This document shows positions 9,604 through 59,298 of a DNA stretch of 59,298 nucleotides, piece by piece (position 1 is the stretch's first letter; each line of letters starts with the position of its first letter). Both the position numbers and the translations under genes were made by a program. Origin of the DNA: Sphingobacteriales bacterium. GTDB lineage: Bacteria > Bacteroidota > Bacteroidia > Chitinophagales > LD1. The stretch covers positions 1-59,298 of the forward strand of contig JADFDM010000016.1 of assembly GCA_018262795.1 (NCBI GenBank), read 5' to 3'. The notes below the pieces were generated by a model. It made no database searches. It was given only the letters and a program-made list of their open reading frames with translations, and was not told the DNA's origin.

Positions 9604-10077
9604 CTAAAACTGATACAGCACTCCCTCTTTCAGCCCAAACATTTTAATAAGGGTGGAGCCGGAGGCAGTGGAGTCATTCTTCATCTTCACCATTGAAAGG
9701 TTGTAGGTGAGGTGAAAGGGGTGGTTCTCTTTGCAAGTGGGGTCGTTAGTAAGCAACAGTTTTAGGGTGGCTTGTGGTGGTAGTGATTTTGCCATGCTGC
9801 CATTCCATAGCAGGCGCAGATTAGCGGCATTGCAGGCTTGAATTTTTGGTGTAAACAGATGCAGGGTGTCTTTGCTGATATAGACCGAATCTACCGGAAT
9901 TACTTCGTTGGTAGCAGCATATAGTTCTTTATTCTTTATCACCTTTCGAAAGGCATCATCCTGCACTAATTCGGTAGATGGTGGAAGCGCGGCAGTGCTC
10001 TTGCTTGCAGTTTTGCATCCAAATAAGAAAAGCAGGAGACCAGCGATGCCAAGAAGGAGTAGTTTTTGTTTCTGCAT
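9604..10077 (-). CDS. lipoprotein of unknown function
   Basis: 157 aa. The N-terminus MQKQKLLLLGIAGLLLFLFGC is a lipoprotein signal with lipobox LFGC (Cys21). The rest has no domain I can name; it contains two further Cys (QACNAANL, DPTCKENHPF) that may form a disulfide. The start ATG shares its A with the TAA stop of the protease gene upstream (TAATG), so translation is probably coupled and the two products may work together, for example as a protease partner or inhibitor. That functional link is inference only. It is convergent with scpB, 15 bp apart. Confidence 0.75.
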   Translation of the reverse strand: MQKQKLLLLGIAGLLLFLFGCKTASKSTAALPPSTELVQDDAFRKVIKNKELYAATNEVIPVDSVYISKDTLHLFTPKIQACNAANLRLLWNGSMAKSLPPQATLKLLLTNDPTCKENHPFHLTYNLSMVKMKNDSTASGSTLIKMFGLKEGVLYQF

Positions 10078-12401
10078 TATCTGATCACTAATTTTCGGGT
10101 GGCATTTCCTTTGGCAGTTTCTACCTGCACGAAGTAAATTCCTTTTCCTTGTTGTGATAAATCAGCCGGAACGTTGCGACTAAAGGATACTTGCGAAAAT
10201 ACTAAACGACCTAAATCATCATACACCTGAATGGTTTTTTGCTCTTCATTTTCGGTCCGGATATTAAATACTCCTGTGGAGGGATTGGGTTCTACCAAAA
10301 CTTGGAAGTTATTTGGCTCTGTGATTCCGGTGGAGTTGAGTACACAAAAGGGAAAATCTTTCTGCGCTCCAAAATTGGGATCGGTGAGGGTGGCATACAC
10401 AATACTTCCGCTTTGGCCGGTTAAGGTCATGGATCCAGTCACATTTCCCGACATGCCATCTCCGTATGAATCGTAAAGTGAAAGTGTGTAACAACCCGGA
10501 GCCAAGCAAAAAGGGATATTATAAGTCATGCCGTTGAAGCTATCGTCATAAGGGCCTCCGGAAAACAGAACAGTAGAGGTACTATCTGTAATTTGCCAAG
10601 TGGTTTCACTGCCGTAGGTATCGGTCACCAAATGCAGATTCAACTGACCGGAAGGAGGAGAAATAATAAAAGTAGAATTTGCCAGATCGTTGGAATTGTT
10701 GGAGTCATTCACCCCATTGGGATTGGTGGTGGCAGCCTCGAAGGTATGATGGCCTACTGAAAGGGTAGCGGAGGGCAAACTGACAGTAGTAGAAGAAAGC
10801 GCAGAGAGATTTCCGCTCCAAGCAAATTGATAGGCGTTTCCATCTATGTTGTAGAGGATGGTGACGGAGGTGAGATTGTTACCTCCGAAATTTTTGAGTA
10901 CTACTGTAGGAACAAAAGAGAGGTTACAGATATTGCCCGAAGGATTCGTGACGGTTACAATTCCCGCATCGTTTTGTTGCAGTGTTCCGCAGGGGAAATT
11001 GGAGCCACCCAAGGAGGTAAGCCCGGTGTTATCAGGATCTAACCAGGGCTTTAGTTGACGAGTGGCGGTGCTGCCGTTGGAGGTCCAGTCGTAAGCCACT
11101 TTTCCGAACATGTCGGGCGAGGTAGGAGTTTGGCAATACGAATCGCCACCAGTCAGTTTACCGATAATTTGTCCCTGATCGTTGAACAAAGGCGAACCGG
11201 AAGATCCCGGCTCAGTGACCCCATGACCGTTGGCAGTGGCTGCCCAGCGAACCCTCCAGTGCGTGCCTTGAACGCTTGTTCCCCAAGAAGCAGAAGTAGG
11301 GGTGGCGGTGTAGGTGGAAATCTTTTTAATGTCGGCATCGGGATGGTGAATGCAAACCCCCGAAGGAGAAGCAGTGGCCGAAGTATTCCACCCGGAGTAA
11401 AAAACATTGAATGCAGCATCGGGCTGGCTGCTCAATTCGAGCAATAAAAAATCGGAGCCTGAATCTCCACCATTATCATCGCTGTCGGCTTTTTTAGTGC
11501 AGCCGATTACTACATGGCTGCCTAACGAACCTTCGGAAGAAGGATTGCTGCAAGCGGGAGCTTCGTAATTGAAATAAAATACCCACTGGCTATATTGATT
11601 GGCGTTGGTGACTCCTTCGCTGCAATGCTGGGCACTTAAAAGATAAGGGGTGCAATCCTGTCGGGCGTTATTAATGAGTGCTCCGGAACAGAAGCCCTGA
11701 CCTTGTGAACTCTGCACTAATATTCTTGCTACGGAGCGTTTTTGATCTTGCCAGGCAGCTCCTTCGCTACAGTTTACGTTCACCTCACAACTTGTAGAAG
11801 TGCCAAAAGTATTGGTGGATTTATGACGAGGGTTGATCCACCGATAAGCGTATCCCACTTCATTTATACTGATTACTCCCTGGCCGATGGCTTGCTTTGG
11901 CTCGTAGTATTCCATCACACATTCATCCCCATGAATAAGGCCGGTGCAGTAGTAGCCTGTTGCCGAATGATTAGCTGCGGTAAAAGCACCCATTATTTCT
12001 TCCTTATCGGGTGAATATACATGTAGCATCGCTCCTTCAGGGATATAAAATTTGTTGTAGAACGGAATGAGCGCCAGTGCGCCTTGCGCTGCGATATGCA
12101 GCCGCCACACTCTACCACCATCGGGCAGGGCTGACCAAGTTCCTGAATTATCAAGATTGAGGTTGGTGTAAATAGATCGGGAAAACTTTGGGAGATCACC
12201 GGTTTTAGAATCAATTTTATCGAGCTTTTCGGCCTCGGTGATGTTTAAAGGCGGCAAAACAGTTTTTTTTATTGCCGGAAAAAATTTGTTGGAAACAGTA
12301 GAACTCTTTGGCAAGAGTGCTTCCTTGACTTGCGCATGGCTCAAGATAAAAGTTAGCAGAAAAGTGAACAGGAGTAAACGATTCTTTATTGTTGTTGACA
12401 T
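10077..12401 (-). CDS. secreted trypsin-like serine protease with T9SS sorting domain (lysyl-endopeptidase-like)
   Basis: 774 aa. The signal peptide ends near SHAQ. A propeptide-like region runs to about residue 200, then the S1 protease domain: His259 in LLSAQHCSEG, Asp317 in SGSDFLLLEL, and Ser401 in TEPGSSGSPLFN. That last motif and the disulfide pattern recall bacterial lysyl endopeptidases. About residues 470-700 hold Ig-like and CUB-like beta modules. The C-terminal ~75 residues are a type A T9SS sorting domain, with VEPNPSTGVFNI, VYDDLGRLV and a final KGIYFVQVE...TRKLVIR. The protein is predicted to be exported through the outer membrane and anchored or released. Confidence 0.92.
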   Translation of the reverse strand: MSTTIKNRLLLFTFLLTFILSHAQVKEALLPKSSTVSNKFFPAIKKTVLPPLNITEAEKLDKIDSKTGDLPKFSRSIYTNLNLDNSGTWSALPDGGRVWRLHIAAQGALALIPFYNKFYIPEGAMLHVYSPDKEEIMGAFTAANHSATGYYCTGLIHGDECVMEYYEPKQAIGQGVISINEVGYAYRWINPRHKSTNTFGTSTSCEVNVNCSEGAAWQDQKRSVARILVQSSQGQGFCSGALINNARQDCTPYLLSAQHCSEGVTNANQYSQWVFYFNYEAPACSNPSSEGSLGSHVVIGCTKKADSDDNGGDSGSDFLLLELSSQPDAAFNVFYSGWNTSATASPSGVCIHHPDADIKKISTYTATPTSASWGTSVQGTHWRVRWAATANGHGVTEPGSSGSPLFNDQGQIIGKLTGGDSYCQTPTSPDMFGKVAYDWTSNGSTATRQLKPWLDPDNTGLTSLGGSNFPCGTLQQNDAGIVTVTNPSGNICNLSFVPTVVLKNFGGNNLTSVTILYNIDGNAYQFAWSGNLSALSSTTVSLPSATLSVGHHTFEAATTNPNGVNDSNNSNDLANSTFIISPPSGQLNLHLVTDTYGSETTWQITDSTSTVLFSGGPYDDSFNGMTYNIPFCLAPGCYTLSLYDSYGDGMSGNVTGSMTLTGQSGSIVYATLTDPNFGAQKDFPFCVLNSTGITEPNNFQVLVEPNPSTGVFNIRTENEEQKTIQVYDDLGRLVFSQVSFSRNVPADLSQQGKGIYFVQVETAKGNATRKLVIR

Positions 12402-50698: not shown

Positions 50699-52264
50699 AT
50701 GAAACGTTCCTTCAAAATAATATCCGCACTGCTTGTAGGCATTTTATTACTGAGTATTTATCAGTGCAAAAACCCCGGAGAATTAGTGCACTCTTCCGGC
50801 ATTGGCAACGCTAAGCAGGAACGTCCACCTAACATTGTGGTGATATTAGCCGATGATTTGGGTAAGTACGATTTGTCTCTTTATGGCGGTCTGAATGTGG
50901 CCACTCCGCACATTGATTCTATCGGTATGAATGGCGTTACTTTTGATTACGGTTATTCTACTGCACCCATTTGTGCTCCTTCCAGAGCCGGATTATTGAC
51001 CGGTAAATATCAGCAGCGTTTTGGGTTTGAATTTTTGCCTCACCGAAACTATCCCAACTCAGGCCTCGAGAAACTTTTTTTGCGCTGGATGACGCGCAAA
51101 ACGAAATGGAGTATTCAGCAAAATGCCAATGCTCCGAAAAATAAACTGAGCCGCCAAAATGGGCTGACCACTAAAGTTCGCACCTTAGCCGAAGTGCTGA
51201 AAGCCAACGGTTATAAAACAGGAATCTTTGGTAAGTGGCATTTGGGAACAGCCGATTCTTCAAAGCCCAACAACCGCGGATTTGATGAGCAATATGGTTT
51301 CTACGAAGCCTTTGCGCTGTATGCCGACAAACGCGATAAAGACATTGTGAACTACAAGCACATTGACGACTTTAAAGACCGTTGGATGTGGCGCAAAGGA
51401 GGGAAAGGCGAAAGCCGCATCCGGCTCAACGACAGCATTATTGACGAGAAAGAGTATCTCACTTTTGCTATTGCTAAAAGAGCCGTGCATTTTATTGATA
51501 GCAACGCGAACCGCCCTTTCTTTCTTTATGTTCCGTTTAATGCTCCGCACGAACCTTTCCAAGCACCGAGAAGTTACTACAACAAACTCTCGAATATTAA
51601 GGACGAAAACAAGCGAATTTATTATGCCATGATCATGGCGCTGGACGATGCCGTGGGAATGATTATGAATGAATTGCGCCAACAAGGGCTGGAAGAAAAT
51701 ACACTGGTGGTTTTTACCAGTGATAACGGAGCCGCTACTTATACCAATGCTGTGACTAACTATCCGCTCAAAGGCGGCAAGTTTATGAACTTTGAAGGAG
51801 GCATCAACATCCCTTACATGATGCAATGGAAAGGAACGCTGCCTCGAAAGAAAACAATGGATATGATGGTGAGTCAGTTAGATATTTTTGCGACTGCCTG
51901 CCGCGTTGCCGACATTAAAACAGATACGCTTGGGTTGGATGGCGTGAATTTGATTCCCTACATCAAAGGATTGCGGGTAGATAAACCACACCGCGAACTT
52001 TTTTGGCGCAGCGGTTACAACTATGCCGCTCACTGGAACAACTGGAAGGTGATTATTGATGATGAACACCAAACCATCGAACTTTATAATTTGGCAAAAG
52101 ATCGGGGAGAGCACGATGATGTGAAGGAAAACCATGCGGTAATTTTGCAGCAACTTCGAAAGGATATACAAAACTGGGATAAGGGATTGATGGCTCCGAG
52201 TTGGCCCTGGATTTTAAACTATAAAGTGGTCATAGATGGGGAAACCTATTATTTCGCTGTTTAA
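50699..52264 (+). CDS. lipoprotein sulfatase
   Basis: 521 aa. Lipoprotein signal with Cys23 in LLLSIYQCKNP. Type I sulfatase: ILADDLGKYD with the metal Asp pair (Asp52, Asp53), and the modification site Cys92 in PICAPSRAGLLTGKYQQR, the C-x-P-S-R motif whose Cys is turned into formylglycine. GKWHLGT and FTSDNGAAT are further metal and substrate motifs. The target is probably a sulfated polysaccharide or glycolipid. The maturing enzyme is encoded by the overlapping next gene. Confidence 0.95.
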   Translation: MKRSFKIISALLVGILLLSIYQCKNPGELVHSSGIGNAKQERPPNIVVILADDLGKYDLSLYGGLNVATPHIDSIGMNGVTFDYGYSTAPICAPSRAGLLTGKYQQRFGFEFLPHRNYPNSGLEKLFLRWMTRKTKWSIQQNANAPKNKLSRQNGLTTKVRTLAEVLKANGYKTGIFGKWHLGTADSSKPNNRGFDEQYGFYEAFALYADKRDKDIVNYKHIDDFKDRWMWRKGGKGESRIRLNDSIIDEKEYLTFAIAKRAVHFIDSNANRPFFLYVPFNAPHEPFQAPRSYYNKLSNIKDENKRIYYAMIMALDDAVGMIMNELRQQGLEENTLVVFTSDNGAATYTNAVTNYPLKGGKFMNFEGGINIPYMMQWKGTLPRKKTMDMMVSQLDIFATACRVADIKTDTLGLDGVNLIPYIKGLRVDKPHRELFWRSGYNYAAHWNNWKVIIDDEHQTIELYNLAKDRGEHDDVKENHAVILQQLRKDIQNWDKGLMAPSWPWILNYKVVIDGETYYFAV

Positions 52265-53297
52265 GACTTCCGTCTATATCAGTTTTACTTTTGTGTGGTG
52301 GCTTACTGCTTGCCATCCTCATTCGGACGAACATCCGCAGTGTTCTAATAATCTTCCTACGGCAAAGCTCACCGATACCGTTTATCCTTATCCCGCTTCT
52401 GATTCTATGAAGAATAATTATGAGGGGATGGCCTTCATTCCTGCCGGAGAGTTTAGGATGGGGGCTGTAGCCGGTGATTCATTTGCCCGCGAAGATGAAA
52501 GCCCGAGACATTTGGTAATCGTAGATTCGTTTTGGATGGATGCCACCGAAGTGACCAACAAAGAATTTCAACAGTTTGTAAATGCCACCCATTACCAAAC
52601 CACGGCCGAAAGAACATCCGATAAAGGCTCTCTCGTTTTTCGTCCTTCCGTCTATTCTCCTCATCACAATTTGAGTTGGTGGAGCTTTGTAACCGATGCC
52701 GATTGGCAACATCCATTAGGGCCGGGCAGCCATATTGATACCATGTCAAACTATCCGGTGGTACATATTTCATGGTATGATGCGATGGCCTATGCAAGTT
52801 GGGCCGGCAAGCGCTTGCCCACCGAGGCCGAATGGGAATATGCCGCTCGCGGAGGATTGGCCGATGCCGTTTTCCCTTGGGGCAATGAAAACCCGGAGAG
52901 TGTTCGCCACGCCAATGTGTTTGAAGGGGAGTTTCCGAATTCTAACTCGGCTGCCGATGGCTTTGTGGATTGGGCACCGGTGGCCTCTTTTGCTGCCAAT
53001 GCTTATGGTTTGTACGATATGAGTGGCAACGTATGGGAATGGTGTGCCGATAAATATCACTCCGCCTATTATTCTTACTGTGCCGATAATGATATAGAGA
53101 ACCCCATCGGCCCTGATAAGAGCTACGACCCTGAACGAAAGTTTGAGGAACAGCGCGTGATTCGCGGAGGCTCCTTTATGTGCAACAAAAGTTACTGTGC
53201 CGGCTACCGGGTATCGGCCCGAAATAAAACGACTCCAGCCACTTCTTTGATGAATGTAGGCTTTCGCTGTGTGAGAGAGGCAAGACCGGTGAAGTGA
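52236..53297 (+). CDS. lipoprotein formylglycine-generating enzyme
   Basis: 353 aa. It starts inside the sulfatase gene (29-bp overlap). The N-terminus ends in a lipobox, WWLTAC with Cys26. The FGE/SUMF1 domain fills the rest: FIPAGEFRMGAVAGDSFARE, SWYDAMAYASWAGKRLPTEA, and GNVWEWCADKYHS. The active-site pair is kept in GGSFMCNKSYCAGYR (Cys316, Cys321), the same spacing as human FGE Cys336 and Cys341. Many FGE-domain proteins of this phylum lack these Cys. The enzyme would oxidise Cys92 of the sulfatase, probably on the periplasmic side. Confidence 0.93.
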   Translation: MGKPIISLFKTSVYISFTFVWWLTACHPHSDEHPQCSNNLPTAKLTDTVYPYPASDSMKNNYEGMAFIPAGEFRMGAVAGDSFAREDESPRHLVIVDSFWMDATEVTNKEFQQFVNATHYQTTAERTSDKGSLVFRPSVYSPHHNLSWWSFVTDADWQHPLGPGSHIDTMSNYPVVHISWYDAMAYASWAGKRLPTEAEWEYAARGGLADAVFPWGNENPESVRHANVFEGEFPNSNSAADGFVDWAPVASFAANAYGLYDMSGNVWEWCADKYHSAYYSYCADNDIENPIGPDKSYDPERKFEEQRVIRGGSFMCNKSYCAGYRVSARNKTTPATSLMNVGFRCVREARPVK

Positions 53298-53420: not shown

Positions 53421-53490
53421 GCTCTTCGACTTGTTCCGTAGAATATATCGAAGAATAGCTAATCGGGATTTTGTAATCCTGCCTGCTTCC
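53421..53490. repeat. intergenic repeat R1, copy a
   Basis: 70 bp, four differences from copy b at 58861-58930. It starts GCTCTTCGAC and ends TAATCCTGCCTGCTTCC. TCTTCGA and TCGAAGA (53423-53429; 53448-53454) can form a hairpin, and GGATT-N4-AATCC a second short one. Confidence 0.8.
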
Positions 53491-53512: not shown

Positions 53513-53593
53513 TCTTTGCCCGCGTCTGTGACCTCACAGATGCGCCCGCAATGTTGAATATAGATGTCTGTGAGGACACAGACATCGGCTAAG
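53513..53593. repeat. intergenic two-hairpin repeat R2, copy a
   Basis: 81 bp, one difference from copy b at 56342-56422. The first hairpin is GTCTGTG-N-CTCACAGAT; the second is GATGTCTGTG-AGGA-CACAGACATC, with a perfect 10-bp stem. The two cores are near reverse complements of each other, so one large stem is an alternative fold. Confidence 0.85.
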
Positions 53594-53812
53594 AAAAGAG
53601 AGCCGAGACAACAAGAACTAAAGCATGGTTTACCAATATCCAATGAACAATAACGATTACACGATTAATGTTTACCCTCCCCACGCATTGCCCGCTTTTT
53701 ACTACACCTGCTGCCCTAATCTTTATACATTATTTATTGTTAACACTTGACAAGTCAGCCGATTTAGTTTATTTTGCCAGTAGCAAATGCCCCTTACACC
53801 AAATCCACGAAT

Positions 53813-53835
53813 TTTGGAACTATTGTTGTAATGAG
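53813..53835 (+). promoter_or_regulatory. promoter/leader block of collagen-like gene (copy 2)
   Basis: TTTGGAACTATTGTTGTAAT lies 50 bp before the ATG at 53863. It is shared with the other family members and resembles a -7 box plus transcript start region. Confidence 0.55.
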
Positions 53836-53862
53836 GCGTATGACGTTTAAATAAAACAGCAC

Positions 53863-55926
53863 ATGAAAAAACTTCTCCTTCCGGTAAGCCTCTTATTCGC
53901 TTTAGCTGCTAATGCCCAAAACGTAGGGATAGGCACTAATACCCCTCAAACCAAATTAGATATTAACGGAGCGCTCTCTGCTCGGGTTTCCTCACTGGCG
54001 GCAGCGGCCACGGTCACTATCCCCGATAACGTAACGCTGTTTCGCCTCACCAATACAGCCGGAGGAAGTAATACTGCGTTAAGCGTTGCCACTCCCAAAG
54101 ACGGGCAATTTCTAACGGTGATAAATGAAGATGATAATACCGCTACGCTGAATGGCTACACCATACTTGCCGGCACCGCTGCTAACCCCAGCGTGGCCAA
54201 TTTTATTTATGTAGGCACGGGAGCTAATCCCGGATGGAAAGTGAGTGGGGATAACACGCCCAGCGGCACCGGGCCAACCGGGCCGCAAGGGCCGGCCGGA
54301 GTTGCGGGTGCGCAAGGCGCTGTAGGGCCACAGGGGCCAGCGGGCCCGCAAGGCCCTGCCGGAGCGAATGGTGCTGTGGGTGCTCAAGGTCCTGCCGGGC
54401 CACAAGGCCCTGTAGGCCCCAAAGGGGCAACAGGTTCTAACGGAACGAACGGAGCGGTAGGCCCACAAGGCCCACAAGGCCCTGCCGGTCTTTTATCAAA
54501 CGGTACTGCAGCAGGCAACACTACCTACTGGAATGGCTCAACTTGGGTACTCAATTCCCACAATATTTATAACAATGGCGGCAATGTGGGGATTGGAACG
54601 GCCAGTGCCCCGGCTCAAAAATTAGATGTACAGGGCAATATCATGCACACCGGCTCAATGATGAGTCGTGGCGCAAACTATAGCTCAGCTTGGATGCGTT
54701 TTGATGAAGATGTTTATGGCAACTCATTGATTTTAGGTGCCGGTGGACTCACCGTGTTAGGTGCCGGAGAATCTGCCGCCACTGCAAGCACAGGAATTGC
54801 CAACCCGGGATCAGAAGTACTTTATCTTACGTCTGATAATGGAGTAGAAATTAAAACTAGTATGCAGAGCGGATGGGCAAGCAGGGTAGATGCCATGTCC
54901 ATTCTGGCCAATGGGAACGTGGGTATCGGAACCACTAACCCTGTTTATAAATTACAGGTAGCTTCGGGATATATTGGAACAGATTATGTTAATACCACTG
55001 ACAATACGGTAAGTTCTGGCGTTAGTGGAATTATGGTTAAAGCCGGAGACAACTTCCACCGCACCGGGAATGCGGCTGCTGTACTTTCTTTCTTGGGGGT
55101 TACAGCGCCCACAGGAGATAATCTTGGAGACCACAAAGCAACAACAACTTTAAATATGAATGGAAATGCGATATCCGATGTTCCTTTTATCAATGTAAGT
55201 TCGGGAACGGGAAACGGATTGCGGTTTTGGAGTAGCGATAGTTACAAAATTAGCATGGGAAATACATCAGAATATAAATATGGTCCAGTAACCGATTACA
55301 GTATAAAAAACAACATGAGTAATAACTCTGGTAGAGGATGGACATGGGGGGTGTCGGGATCTACCCCTGTTGCAGCTATCAATAACACTGGAGATATGCA
55401 AATAGCCGGAGATATGACTGTTAAAGGTTTAGTTGGATCAGGCTCACGACCTGTATATGCTGATGCTAATGGTAAACTCATTACCAGTGCCTCCAATGGC
55501 TCTATTCATTCTGTAAAGCAAACGTCTGATATTTCAACCAGTTCCTCTACCTTTGCAACCATGGGTTCCCTCACTTTGACTTTTACACCTACACATAGTA
55601 CGGTTTATCTCTTCTTTTCAGCCGGGGTGGATGTGAATGGTTTTACGCAAGCATGGGGGGCCTTTCGCATACTAAAAGGAAGCACTAGCGTAGCTGGAAC
55701 CAATGTGACTTTAGAAGACTTTGATGAAGATTATTATGGCGATATTTATCAGACCTCATCAGCAAACCCCGCTATTAACGGCATACCCGTGAGTGTAACG
55801 GTCGGTACATCGGTCACCTTTAAAGTGCAATGGCGTATAACTCGCTTATGGGGGTCAGCCAGTATGGTTTGTAACCCCGCCTCTGTACCAGACAATGCGC
55901 ATGCAGTGCTTACCATTATGGAATAA
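53863..55926 (+). CDS. secreted collagen-like surface protein
   Basis: 687 aa. A signal peptide ([19 protein letters not shown]) is followed by a conserved N-terminal domain (20-133), then a Gly-X-Y collagen-like stretch (about 135-209, [20 protein letters not shown] at its start), [20 protein letters not shown], and a long beta-helical or fibre-like body with further [10 protein letters not shown] motifs. The C-terminal ~130 residues form a C1q/TNF-like beta domain ([20 protein letters not shown]). No T9SS sorting domain is seen. The protein probably forms a trimeric fibre on the surface. It is the first complete member of a tandem family with the gene at 56663. Confidence 0.88.
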
Positions 55927-55936
55927 AACACAGACT

Positions 55937-56263
55937 ATGAAATTAGCAATAGTAAGTTTATTGTGTCTTTGCTTAACCAGCGTACACAGTCAAAACAGAA
56001 TAGCTGGAATGAATAACTCCGCCCATTTTCAGAATAACAGAGACCATCTAAAACAGGAATCAATGGATTCGCTTTGCCGGGGGATCAATTTTTCTAAAAA
56101 ACAGACTGGTTATTCGATATTCATGAACAGCCAGGAAATAAAGATAAGAGACAACTCTACCGGAGAGGTGCATACTTACTCGACAAAAGATGAAACAACT
56201 TATCGGAAAATAATTGACGAAATCAGGTCGGGGAAAAAAGTTGTAGAGTTTAACCGAGAATAG
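55937..56263 (+). CDS. small secreted protein of unknown function
   Basis: 108 aa from ATG 55937. A signal peptide (MKLAIVSLLCLCLTSVHSQ) leads into about 90 polar residues with two likely short beta hairpins (YSIFMNSQEIKIRDNSTGEV) and one Cys (SLCRGINF). No domain is recognised. It follows the first collagen-like gene by 10 bp, on the same transcript, and no such gene follows the second one at 58739. It may be an accessory protein, or a tail of an older gene cassette. Confidence 0.65.
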   Translation: MKLAIVSLLCLCLTSVHSQNRIAGMNNSAHFQNNRDHLKQESMDSLCRGINFSKKQTGYSIFMNSQEIKIRDNSTGEVHTYSTKDETTYRKIIDEIRSGKKVVEFNRE

Positions 56264-56341
56264 CTTCTTGCTGGTATCTGACTTCCAACTCGCCAAGTAT
56301 GACACCCGGCATATTAGAGCCAAACTAATTGTGACTTTAAC

Positions 56342-56422
56342 TCTTTGCCCGCGTCTGTGTCCTCACAGATGCGCCCGCAATGTTGAATATAGATGTCTGT
56401 GAGGACACAGACATCGGCTAAG
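56342..56422. repeat. intergenic two-hairpin repeat R2, copy b
   Basis: 81 bp. Here the first hairpin core TCTGTGTCCTCACAGA is an exact reverse complement of the second core TCTGTGAGGACACAGA, so the element can form two short hairpins or one long one. The one difference from copy a lies in this core. Confidence 0.85.
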
Positions 56423-56611
56423 CAATGAACGATACCCCATTAACCAATAACCAATACACGATTAACTATTTTTCTCTCCGCTCTTCGCTCACTTTCCACT
56501 ACACCTATGCCTTAATTGTTATACAGTATCTGTTTCGGCCACTTGGCAAATCAGGTGCTTTGATTTACTTTACTATTGGTGGGTACATATTATTGCACTT
56601 GTTCCATCAAC

Positions 56612-56634
56612 TTTGGAACTATTGTTGCAATAAA
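56612..56634 (+). promoter_or_regulatory. promoter/leader block of collagen-like gene (copy 3)
   Basis: TTTGGAACTATTGTTGCAAT begins 51 bp before the ATG at 56663. Confidence 0.55.
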
Positions 56635-56662
56635 TCGTAAATCACACAAATAAAACCGGCAC

Positions 56663-58738
56663 ATGAAAAAACTTCTCCTTTCCACCGCCATCTTGTTTGC
56701 TATGGCTGCGCAAGCCCAAAATGTAGGGATAGGCACGAACGACCCTAAAACCAAATTAGATATTAACGGAGCGCTCTCCGCCCGCCTTACTTCACTGGCG
56801 GCAGCGACCACGGTTACTATCCCCGATAACGTAACGCTGTTTCGCCTCACCAATACAGCCGGAGGAAGTAATACTGCGTTAAGCGTTGCCACTCCCAAAG
56901 ACGGGCAATTTCTCACCGTGATAAATGAAGATGATAATACAGCTAGCTTAAACGGCTACACCATACTTGCCGGCACCGCTGCTAACCCCAGCGTGGCCAA
57001 TTTTATTTATGTGGGCACGGGAGCCAACCCCGGATGGAAAGTGAGTGGCGATAACACGCCCAGCGGCACCGGGCCAACCGGGCCGCAAGGGCCGGCCGGA
57101 GTTGCGGGTGCGCAAGGCGCTGTAGGGCCACAGGGGCCAGCGGGACCGCAAGGCCCTGCGGGAGCAAATGGTGCTGTGGGCGCTCAAGGCCCTGCCGGCC
57201 CGCAAGGTCCTGCGGGAGCAAACGGTGCTGTGGGTGCTCAAGGCCCTGCCGGCCCACAAGGCCCTGCGGGAGCAAACGGTGCTGTGGGTGCTCAAGGCCC
57301 TGCCGGCCCACAAGGCCCTGCGGGAGCGAATGGTGCTGTGGGCGCTCAAGGTCCTGCCGGCACACAAGGTCCTGCGGGAGCAAACGGTGCTGTGGGTGCT
57401 CAAGGCCCTGCCGGCCCACAAGGGCCACAGGGTGCTGCGGGACTTTTATCACCCGGCACAGTAGCAGGCAACACTACCTTTTGGAATGGCTCCTCTTGGG
57501 TGCTTAATTCCAGCAATATTTATAACAATGGGGGGAATGTGGGGATTGGAACGGCCAGTGCACCGACCCAAAAATTAGAGGTGAACGGTGCTGCGCTTTT
57601 AGACGGAGGCGGGCCTTTATATCTGTTAGATGCTAACCACGGAATAAAGTCCACCGCTGGGCAAGGGGTAACCATTTTTACTTATGGTGTTGCCAATGGA
57701 ATTTTTCTACAGCAATCAACCGGAAACGTAGGGATTGGCATTACATCTCCAGCGGCCGATTTAGACTTGGGTAAAACCACCGCTGCCGGTGCTTTACGCG
57801 CTGTATTTGCCCGCCAAAGTGAAGGGAACTCTACCGGAAGTGGAACGTTTTTAGGGGTTAGAGCTTGGGAAACCCAACAAGCGACCTATGGAGGGAAGAT
57901 GTTTTCTCTTGAAAATACATTCTACGGGCAACTAAATAGCTCTATAGAGTTTTATAGAGGAGGCGGAACCACCGGAGGCTTTATGACCTTTACTACCAAT
58001 AATGGCACAGAGAAAATGCGAATTGATGCAAGTGGTAATGTGAAAATCAATAGTTTGGCTAACAACGGTAACAAGGTAGTTTATGCCGACAACAATGGCA
58101 CCCTAACTACCAATAGTGGAGGTTCCAACAGTGGAAATACTTCATGGGTTTTAAACGGCACCTTTGTTTCAAGTCGGGATGATTTGGGAACTACTAATTT
58201 TGACGCTGACCAAGCGGATGACGTGACTTATACCCGCGATTTAGGATTTAATGTGACCATAGATGGAACCAGTTATAGCCAAGTATCTGTTAGCACCAAT
58301 GGACTAATTGCTTTTGGCAATGTATCCATTAATGCATGTTGTAGTCAAGCATGGCCATTAACCGTGACTAACAACCCCATGATAGCGTTTTACTACCATG
58401 ATATGAAAGATTATGGTGGGGGAGAATTTATGAGAGATTATACCGTGGGGGCAGCTCCGAGTAGAACATACATTCTCTGGTATAAGATGCGAGAGTACAG
58501 TAATACTGTTTCTACCCTTGAATGTATGGTCATGATCCATGAAACTTCTGGCTTGATTAATGTGAAATACTTTGGCACTAACGCTACCTTAAACGGGCAA
58601 GCAGGAGTTTCATCTACCGTCATTGGTTTTCAGGGGTACGGTGGATCCTCTGCTAATTATTACCCTATTACTTATAACGGTAAAATTATGGATGATAACA
58701 ATCAGTTTGACCAATGGAGTATCAGTCCTGTTAGATAA
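56663..58738 (+). CDS. secreted collagen-like surface protein with expanded Gly-X-Y repeats
   Basis: 691 aa. Signal peptide [19 protein letters not shown], then an N-terminal domain almost identical to that of the gene at 53863, then a Gly-X-Y stretch of about 125 residues (135-260). This is built from five copies of an 18-residue unit (54 bp), [18 protein letters not shown], where the other gene has one. After [20 protein letters not shown] the sequence is unrelated to its neighbour. The last ~200 residues look like a beta-rich NIDO/PA14-type adhesion domain ([31 protein letters not shown]). It is a likely surface fibre or adhesin. Confidence 0.88.
57138..57432 (+). repeat. 54-bp tandem repeat coding for collagen-like units
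   Basis: Five in-frame copies of a 54-bp unit coding for 18 residues. The copies differ by a few silent third-base changes and one Thr for Pro, so some are recent and some older. The neighbouring gene has one copy in the same place (about 54348-54401). Confidence 0.9.
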
Positions 58739-58860
58739 GGGTATATTCTAGGTAGAAGTGAGAAAGTTTACGCACGATCTTCTTTCATTCGCAAAAATTC
58801 TATTCCTCTTCAAAAAGATTAGGACTTTATTATCGGTCAGGGTTCGAGCCTACGAAGCCC

Positions 58861-58930
58861 GCTCTTCGACTTATTCCGTAGAGTATGTCGAAGAAAAGCT
58901 AATCGGGATTTTGTAATCCTGCCTGCTTCC
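58861..58930. repeat. intergenic repeat R1, copy b
   Basis: 70 bp, four differences from copy a. Here the hairpin TCTTCGAC/GTCGAAGA is perfect over 8 bp. Confidence 0.8.
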
Positions 58931-59110
58931 TGTTTCTGTCTCCTCAAACTCCCAACATGGCGCGAGCGCTTGCTTCTACCTTTCCCTCTGCTTCCCACTA
59001 CACCCATGCCCTAACCGTTATACAGCATCTATTTCGGCCCCTTGACAAATCATACCCTTTGATTTACTTTACTATTGGTAAATAGGTTTTATTGCACTCC
59101 TTCCATAGAC

Positions 59111-59133
59111 TTTGGAACTATTATTGTGATGAA
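59111..59133 (+). promoter_or_regulatory. promoter/leader block of collagen-like gene (copy 4)
   Basis: TTTGGAACTATTATTGTGAT begins 51 bp before the ATG at 59162. Confidence 0.55.
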
Positions 59134-59161
59134 ATGCCTGTCACTTTAAATTAAACCGAGT

Positions 59162-59298
59162 ATGAAAAAACTTCTCCTTTCCGCAGCCATCTTGATTGCT
59201 ATGGCTGCACAAGCCCAAAATGTAGGCGTAGGCACTAATGACCCTAAAAGCAAATTAGACATTGCCGGAGGGCTTTCTCTCCGGGAGGGAACGGCTCT
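59162..59298 (+). CDS. secreted fibre-like protein, N-terminal part (cut by window edge)
   Basis: 45 codons to the window edge: signal peptide MKKLLLSAAILIAMAAQAQ followed by NVGVGTNDPKSKLDIAGGLS. The start matches the genes at 53863 and 56663 and the one at 1-387. After residue 40 it departs from them (SLREGTA), so it may be a further member with a different first domain. The same leader block lies upstream. Confidence 0.8.
   Translation, partial: MKKLLLSAAILIAMAAQAQNVGVGTNDPKSKLDIAGGLSLREGTA

Follow-up and report, generated by a model that had tools for sequence, protein, structure and literature searches.

A mosaic set of collagen-stalked, putatively secreted proteins in a Sphingobacteriales genome, probably diversified by recombination between shared modules

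Introduction

Bacterial collagen-like proteins with varied C-terminal domains are known from the Bcl/BclA-type and Scl proteins (PMC8968730). Legionella Lcl is a Gram-negative case, a secreted lollipop-shaped protein with an N-terminal part, a collagen-like stalk and a trimeric C-terminal binding domain, and a Chitinophagaceae bacterium is named among the organisms with apparent Lcl homologues (PMC11162425). Here we describe a gene family of similar design in a Sphingobacteriales bacterium (GenBank assembly GCA_018262795.1; 3.48 Mb in 19 contigs, completeness 98.4%). The window that we analysed, 59,298 bp in length, is an entire contig of this genome (JADFDM010000016.1, here C7) and carries two adjoining collagen-like genes, A and B. 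We interpret the family as a dispersed gene set for secreted stalk-and-tip fibres (adhesins), probably trimeric, that was likely diversified by recombination between shared modules.

Compared with Bcl/BclA and Scl proteins, the present set has a shared VGIGT-type N-terminal module (N-module), a stalk followed by another VGIGT block and a middle part, and a leader that is common to several members; no LPXTG anchor was seen in this set. Genes A and B match the Lcl family model only in their Gly-X-Y part, far below the cut-off. In fibrillar adhesins, stalk and tip domains occur in many combinations and domain shuffling is a source of adhesins (PMC8286594, PMC10952558), but the domain families are different, and the exchange proposed here would take place at the DNA level within one genome. 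Fibres of extracellular contractile injection systems carry exchangeable tips, including S74 and C1q types (PMC12923769), whereas the proteins described here have signal-peptide-like N-termini, and no tail genes were found among the window open reading frames (ORFs) scanned. Surface proteins of Porphyromonas gingivalis, also one of the Bacteroidota, are diversified through recombination by domain rearrangement and allelic exchange (PMC5266723), but they belong to different families and the exchange is between strains, while here it would be between paralogues.

The general stalk-and-tip design is already known, and it is the mosaic set that is new. A search of open-licence literature (titles and abstract openings, with limited terms) found no description of this layout. 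A first-pass annotation of this DNA had reported knowing of no named system with it. For the precise arrangement that may be true, but the general build is like that of collagen-stalked proteins with varied C-terminal domains.

Results

Genes A and B share a stem and carry unrelated heads

The right end of the contig holds, in this order, gene A, a small ORF of 108 amino acids (aa), gene B and a fragment of gene C. Genes A (53863-55926, +) and B (56663-58738, +) are complete ORFs of 687 and 691 aa that adjoin on the same strand and have the same layout except for the head: a signal peptide, an N-module, a Gly-X-Y (collagen-like) tract, a post-collagen block, a middle part and a C-terminal head. 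In gene A, the signal peptide (53863-53916, read by eye, with likely cleavage before Q19) is followed by an N-module of about 112 aa (53917-54255), a tract of about 25 Gly-X-Y triplets (54271-54489) that matches Pfam Collagen, a shared block that ends in NVGIGT (54490-54632) and, after the middle part, head A (aa 542-687; 55486-55926). The corresponding parts of gene B are its signal peptide (56663-56716, from nucleotide comparison with A and with a gene cut by the end of contig C2), an A-type N-module (56717-57055, from sequence comparison), about 42 triplets (57071-57442), the shared block (57443-57590, from DNA identity with A) and head B (aa 489-691; 58127-58738). All these parts lie on the plus strand. 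Pfam Collagen (PF01391) scores above its cut-off in both A (1.3e-10) and B (1.1e-17). As judged by eye, both proteins start with a signal-peptide-like stretch and then have a Gln at the likely cleavage site, which fits the Q-rule reported for Bacteroidetes, by which Gln follows signal-peptide cleavage (PMC5837995). The small ORF (55937-56263, +) adjoins gene A and also has a signal-peptide-like start; on that strand the interval from B to C contains no ORF of 100 aa or longer.

DNA identity between A and B varies along the two genes. Over the 240 bp that precede the start codon it is 61-69%, and in the signal-peptide window 75%. It reaches 87-100% in 60-bp windows of the N-module, where exact runs of 98 and 95 bp occur, and 90-100% at the start of the Gly-X-Y tract. 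The block after the tract stays at 76-90% up to about +745 and falls to 63% at +745 to +785; past +785 the two genes are unrelated (30-51%), except in the last, thinly aligned windows. The first-pass annotation had described two complete genes with a near-identical N-terminal part containing long unchanged DNA stretches, a common block after the Gly-X-Y region and otherwise unrelated C-terminal parts, and the profile agrees with it on each of these points, as do the N-module proteins, which are 95% identical. The excess of N-terminal identity over the flanks that its reading called for is also present (87-100% against 61-69% directly upstream).

Silent changes between A and B are distributed unevenly. 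No fourfold site is changed in codons 61-80 (0/13) or in codons 132-160 (0/25), while 11 of 63 are changed in codons 20-131, or 11 of 50 without codons 61-80. If the 31 differences found in 480 bp fell at random, the 98-bp longest run would have p=0.02 and the second longest, of 95 bp, p=0.0001. This patchy pattern is as would be expected of conversion tracts.

Gene B changes its closest relative at the signal-peptide border

The beginning of gene B resembles not A but the gene that is cut by the end of contig C2 (C2e). Over the 57 nt of the signal peptide, B is identical to C2e at 55 positions, whereas A is identical to B at 42 and to C2e at 42. At informative sites, defined as those where A differs from C2e, B matches C2e at 14 of 14 between nt 19 and 51, and then matches A at 11 of 15 between nt 54 and 120. 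Beyond nt 120 it matches A at 10 of 12 sites and neither gene at 2, which is expected because the C2 gene has another module there. In the upstream 200 bp B matches C2 41 times, A 23 times and neither 7 times. With all sites included, none of 20,000 permutations was as clustered; for coding nt 1-120 alone, 6 of 20,000 were. The recombinant may be A rather than B, since the signal peptide of A is the odd one.

Modules and leader occur in separate combinations

Further genes of this genome carry some of the same modules. The N-module of gene A is 95% identical at the protein level to that of B, 90% to that of a gene on contig C15 and 59% to that of a gene on contig C129 of G007, a genome of the same genus. 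An internal gene of contig C2 (C2i, 1133 aa) has a similar leader and a similar signal-peptide/VGIGT start and continues with a different N-module (36% to A). Gene C and C2e, each visible for 45 codons, resemble C2i over that length. Peptidase_S74 (PF13884) is found near the ends of the C15 and C2i genes, and a Pfam scan did not find it at the C-terminus of A or B. Other Gly-X-Y proteins, with different N-termini, are present elsewhere in the genome.

The leader of gene A (53660-53862, +) contains the box TTTGGAACTATTGTTG, with a 15-base core at 53814-53828; in the leader of gene B (56462-56662, +) the core lies at 56613-56627. The leader of A shares 60-64% identity with the leaders of B, C, C2i and C2e, 53% with that of a gene at the left end of the window and 39% with that of the C15 gene. 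The C15 leader is unlike the six others (37-47%), and the leader of the left-end gene, which is 48-53% alike, was included on the strength of its box. The A-type N-module and the leader therefore appear to assort separately, with the C15 gene having the module without the leader, and C2i the leader with another module. We defined the 15-base core on the six genes A, B, C, C2i, C2e and the left-end gene; in each of them it lies 50-56 bp ahead of the start codon. Exact copies of the core number six in the whole genome, all of them before the source genes, where about 0.1 would be expected from base composition. With up to 3 mismatches allowed, no copy of the box was found in the 260 bp ahead of 13 further genes of this genome, three G007 genes and one G009 gene. 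It possibly marks a co-controlled gene set.

Since the window is a whole contig, the truncation of gene C (59162-59298, +) is an assembly break. C7 and C2 each end 137 bases into a gene of this kind, and the last 77 bases of the two ends are identical to each other and to the internal C2 gene. We infer that assembly halted within the shared module, and the member count is therefore a lower bound. Gene C, which begins at 59162 and continues past the contig end, is the truncated third member that the first-pass annotation had recognised. Its fourth member at the other window end did not hold: the left-end gene (387-1 on the minus strand, cut by the contig end after 387 bp, leader box at 428-442, minus) is 53 kb away and lacks this N-module, and its match is limited to the first 40 aa (50%), with other sequence following.

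Both heads recur at the C-termini of proteins from related genomes

Head A gave 16 matches at E<=1e-8 in 14 of 30 genomes of the family. Each of the 16 is preceded by a Gly-X-Y run of 13 or more triplets (the sixteenth is in G005), the 15 scored matches have at most 16 residues after the head, and the visible N-termini are of several VGIGT kinds. All 9 matches of head B at E<=1e-40 are C-terminal, with at most 6 residues after the head; six of them are behind Gly-X-Y, one has an unrelated N-terminus and four are cut at the 5' end. Close relatives of head B are C-terminal in 6 further genomes, and its weaker matches (E 1e-23 and weaker) are mostly in proteins of more than 1,000 residues.

Head A had been labelled C1q/TNF-like and head B NIDO-like, and we could confirm neither name. 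No Pfam family matched at E<=10, with alignments of 2 rows for head A and 4 rows for head B, and sequence searches of the PDB gave two matches for head A and one for head B, all of which we take as spurious. Single-sequence AlphaFold models were poor: that of head A is all-beta at low confidence (mean predicted local distance difference test score, pLDDT, of 49.7), and that of head B, at 34.3, is unusable. With the head A model, Foldseek found no match at E<=0.001, and a second structural alignment gave Z scores of at most 6.9 to varied chains. No C1q/TNF chain was among the 50 rows listed for each head A structure search, which is uninformative at this model confidence. Head B may still be distantly related to NIDO.

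The N-module has a match at E<=0.001 in 27 of 60 genomes searched, including its own. It was found in none of 50,697 phage records and none of 72,556 plasmid records, and head A likewise in none of the 50,697 phage records. Searches of viral contigs gave nothing for head A or head B, and only two 16-residue matches in 2 contigs for the N-module.

Both heads have relatives in G007 (82% complete), where a head-A gene (58% in the head) and a head-B gene (42%) lie on different contigs. Heads A and B would thus be older than the species split, if heads were not transferred between species, which could undo this conclusion. Taken with the identity of the N-modules (95% between A and B, 59% between A and the G007 head-A gene), this age calls for either conversion of the module or movement of heads. 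In an N-module tree of 18 rows, A, B and the C15 gene form one group (support 80/91); the three G007 rows (96/93), the two G051 rows and the two G016 rows likewise stay together. An approximately unbiased (AU) test rejects the grouping of N-modules by head type, with p 1.6e-66 for the head-A pair, 5.7e-5 for the S74 trio and 5.9e-196 for the head-B trio; these groups were set by head type, but after the N-module identity matrix was known, and the rows of the head-B trio are far apart, with one long branch.

Tandem arrays are not unique to the window, since five VGIGT genes stand in tandem on one strand in G027, from another genus of the family (C264:68500-87500), one of them with a head-B relative. 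Next to the G007 head-A gene stands a relative of the small ORF (alignment score 56, against 48 for the best of 1,000 shuffles). A model built from two rows only detected the small ORF in 3 of 30 family genomes, in one of them weakly (E 0.0027).

Neighbouring genes and intergenic repeats

Upstream of gene A (50699-53297) lie a sulfatase gene and, directly after it, a gene of the FGE-sulfatase family (PF03781). The neighbourhood of the G007 head-A gene is different: read by eye, the genes upstream of it are for ATP synthase gamma and chromosome segregation, and a hydroxyacyl-CoA dehydrogenase is downstream. Between the G007 head-B gene and the next N-module gene there is an ORF of 272 aa (G007:C11 691-1509, minus), perhaps, by eye, a folding factor. 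Elsewhere in the window a gene on the minus strand (10077-12401) matches a trypsin-like domain and the C-terminal sorting domain of the type IX secretion system (T9SS).

Two intergenic repeats were seen around the A-B pair. A palindromic repeat of 87 bp occurs at 53513-53599 and 56342-56428, with 97% identity between the copies (88-94% in the A/B upstream profile), and has 13 further partial matches in the genome; it is perhaps a dispersed intergenic repeat or a terminator element. The idea that this intergenic repeat drives recombination was dropped, because a 179-bp query matched the genome at 16 places, mainly as partial copies at other loci. A repeat of 70 bp (53421-53490 and 58861-58930, 94% alike) flanks the A-B pair, and a genome search found no further copy.

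Discussion

Our interpretation, which we hold to be likely, is that genes A and B belong to a dispersed set encoding secreted stalk-and-tip fibres whose diversity stems from recombination between shared modules. What points to it in the DNA is the modular build of the genes, the independent combinations of these modules, the patchy identity with its switch of parent, and a leader box whose exact form appears confined to this set. Each gene would consist of a leader, a signal peptide/VGIGT start, an N-module, a Gly-X-Y stalk, a post-collagen block, a middle part and a C-terminal head. The product would be exported by the Sec route and cleaved before the Gln; three chains would then assemble via the head, which would nucleate the Gly-X-Y triple helix and be displayed as a ligand-binding (adhesive) tip, with N-module and stalk as a common scaffold. 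Homologous recombination between the shared blocks would keep the scaffolds alike within a genome, and the same process would let heads sit on other scaffolds, so that several tips are presented. S74 domains are chaperones of trimeric fibres, and their presence on sister genes fits this picture.

The first-pass annotation had proposed gene conversion or recombination through the shared blocks, giving new heads on one stem. The identity peak in the module, the switch at the signal peptide and the grouping of N-modules support the recombination without proving it, and G007, the one genome with both heads, does not have the same C-termini in the same order. The novelty of the heads is the part that fails, as both have relatives in G007. 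For the same reason the recent event appears to be at least as much a homogenisation of stems as a gain of heads.

Several points weigh against this interpretation. Purifying selection on the N-module contributes to its similarity, and the stricter silent-site run test on A, B and the C15 gene, which gave no signal for A=C15 or B=C15, reached p=0.039 for A=B, weak by itself. For the switch in B, 583 of 20,000 permutations were as clustered when third positions alone were used. In the tree one G027 row is separate from the other three, which have the G026 row in their midst, the support for A, B and C15 is only 80/91, and the N-module of the G007 head-B gene, being cut off, had to be left out. 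The leader core was derived from the very genes that it finds, so that only its absence elsewhere is informative, and at up to 1 mismatch there are 9 sites (the 6 exact and 3 more) against 4 for a reversed control. The order of the array depends on the assembler, given that the exact repeats of 98 and 95 bp are longer than the 77-bp overlap of the contig ends. Neither head model is good enough for a fold to be assigned. Trimer assembly, tip display and ligand binding we infer by analogy with Lcl and Bcl proteins (PMC11162425, PMC8968730). Finally, the Pfam scan did not find in A or B the T9SS sorting domain (Por_Secre_tail) that the window gene at 10077-12401 carries.

Much of the similarity between A and B could also come from an ordinary tandem duplication after which the C-termini diverged fast or were replaced, with the N-module under purifying selection and no recombination between the copies. 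The two genes adjoin on the same strand, their upstream regions can still be aligned (61-69%), lineage-specific copies would likewise group the N-modules of one genome, and the stricter run and switch tests are only moderately significant. We nevertheless consider this unlikely: the relatives of the heads in G007 put the A/B split before the species split unless heads moved between species, yet the A and B N-modules are 95% identical against 59% for A and the G007 head-A gene; the fourfold changes are patchy, the signal peptide of B is near the C2 copies and not near A, and in the C15 gene the N-module occurs without the leader. That A and B became adjacent or mosaic through the misjoining of a module common to several loci is suggested by the breaks of C7 and C2 at the same 77 bases of the shared module and by exact A/B repeats longer than these. 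Such a chimera is very unlikely, however, given that the genome contains no second close copy of head A, head B or the small ORF, that relatives have genes of the same layout, and that the switch in B falls within 137 nt, a length shorter than usual sequencing reads.

A common N-terminus with varied C-termini and a small ORF after gene A, with a relative after the G007 head-A gene, also recalls the layout of polymorphic toxin systems, where a variable C-terminal toxin is followed by a small immunity gene (PMC3482391, PMC3848433). We consider this explanation very unlikely, as the small ORF has a signal-peptide-like start and is found in 3 of 30 family genomes against 14 of 30 for head A, gene C directly follows B, head A stands behind collagen tracts, and Pfam searches found no toxin domain in either head. 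It is also very unlikely that the genes encode tail fibres of a phage, a prophage or an extracellular contractile injection system. PHROGs tail-fibre families do match A and B, in part beyond the Gly-X-Y tract, S74 is present in two members, and injection-system fibres are reported with C1q and S74 tips (PMC12923769). The N-termini are signal-peptide-like, however, and the 16 window ORFs scanned include no tail gene, the neighbours of A being a sulfatase and an FGE-sulfatase family gene. None of 50,697 phage records matched the N-module or head A, and the viral contigs gave for the N-module only 16-residue matches in 2 of them.

A bolder version of the recombination reading, which we put forward as a tentative and rather doubtful possibility, is that these genes form a combinatorial system devoted to surface fibres, in which at least six leader-defined loci hold leader, N-module, stalk and head as exchangeable cassettes. 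Ongoing recombination among near-identical modules of the dispersed loci would then change the tip expressed at each locus and thereby create heritable tip variation in this Bacteroidota lineage, and some heads would travel with a small secreted partner gene.

Assemblies can break inside shared modules such as these, and repertoires of this kind may therefore be undercounted. Two head families without a Pfam match recur at the C-termini of collagen-like and VGIGT proteins across the family. The set described here offers a readable case of a collagen-stalked repertoire possibly built by module exchange, with a candidate breakpoint visible in the DNA.

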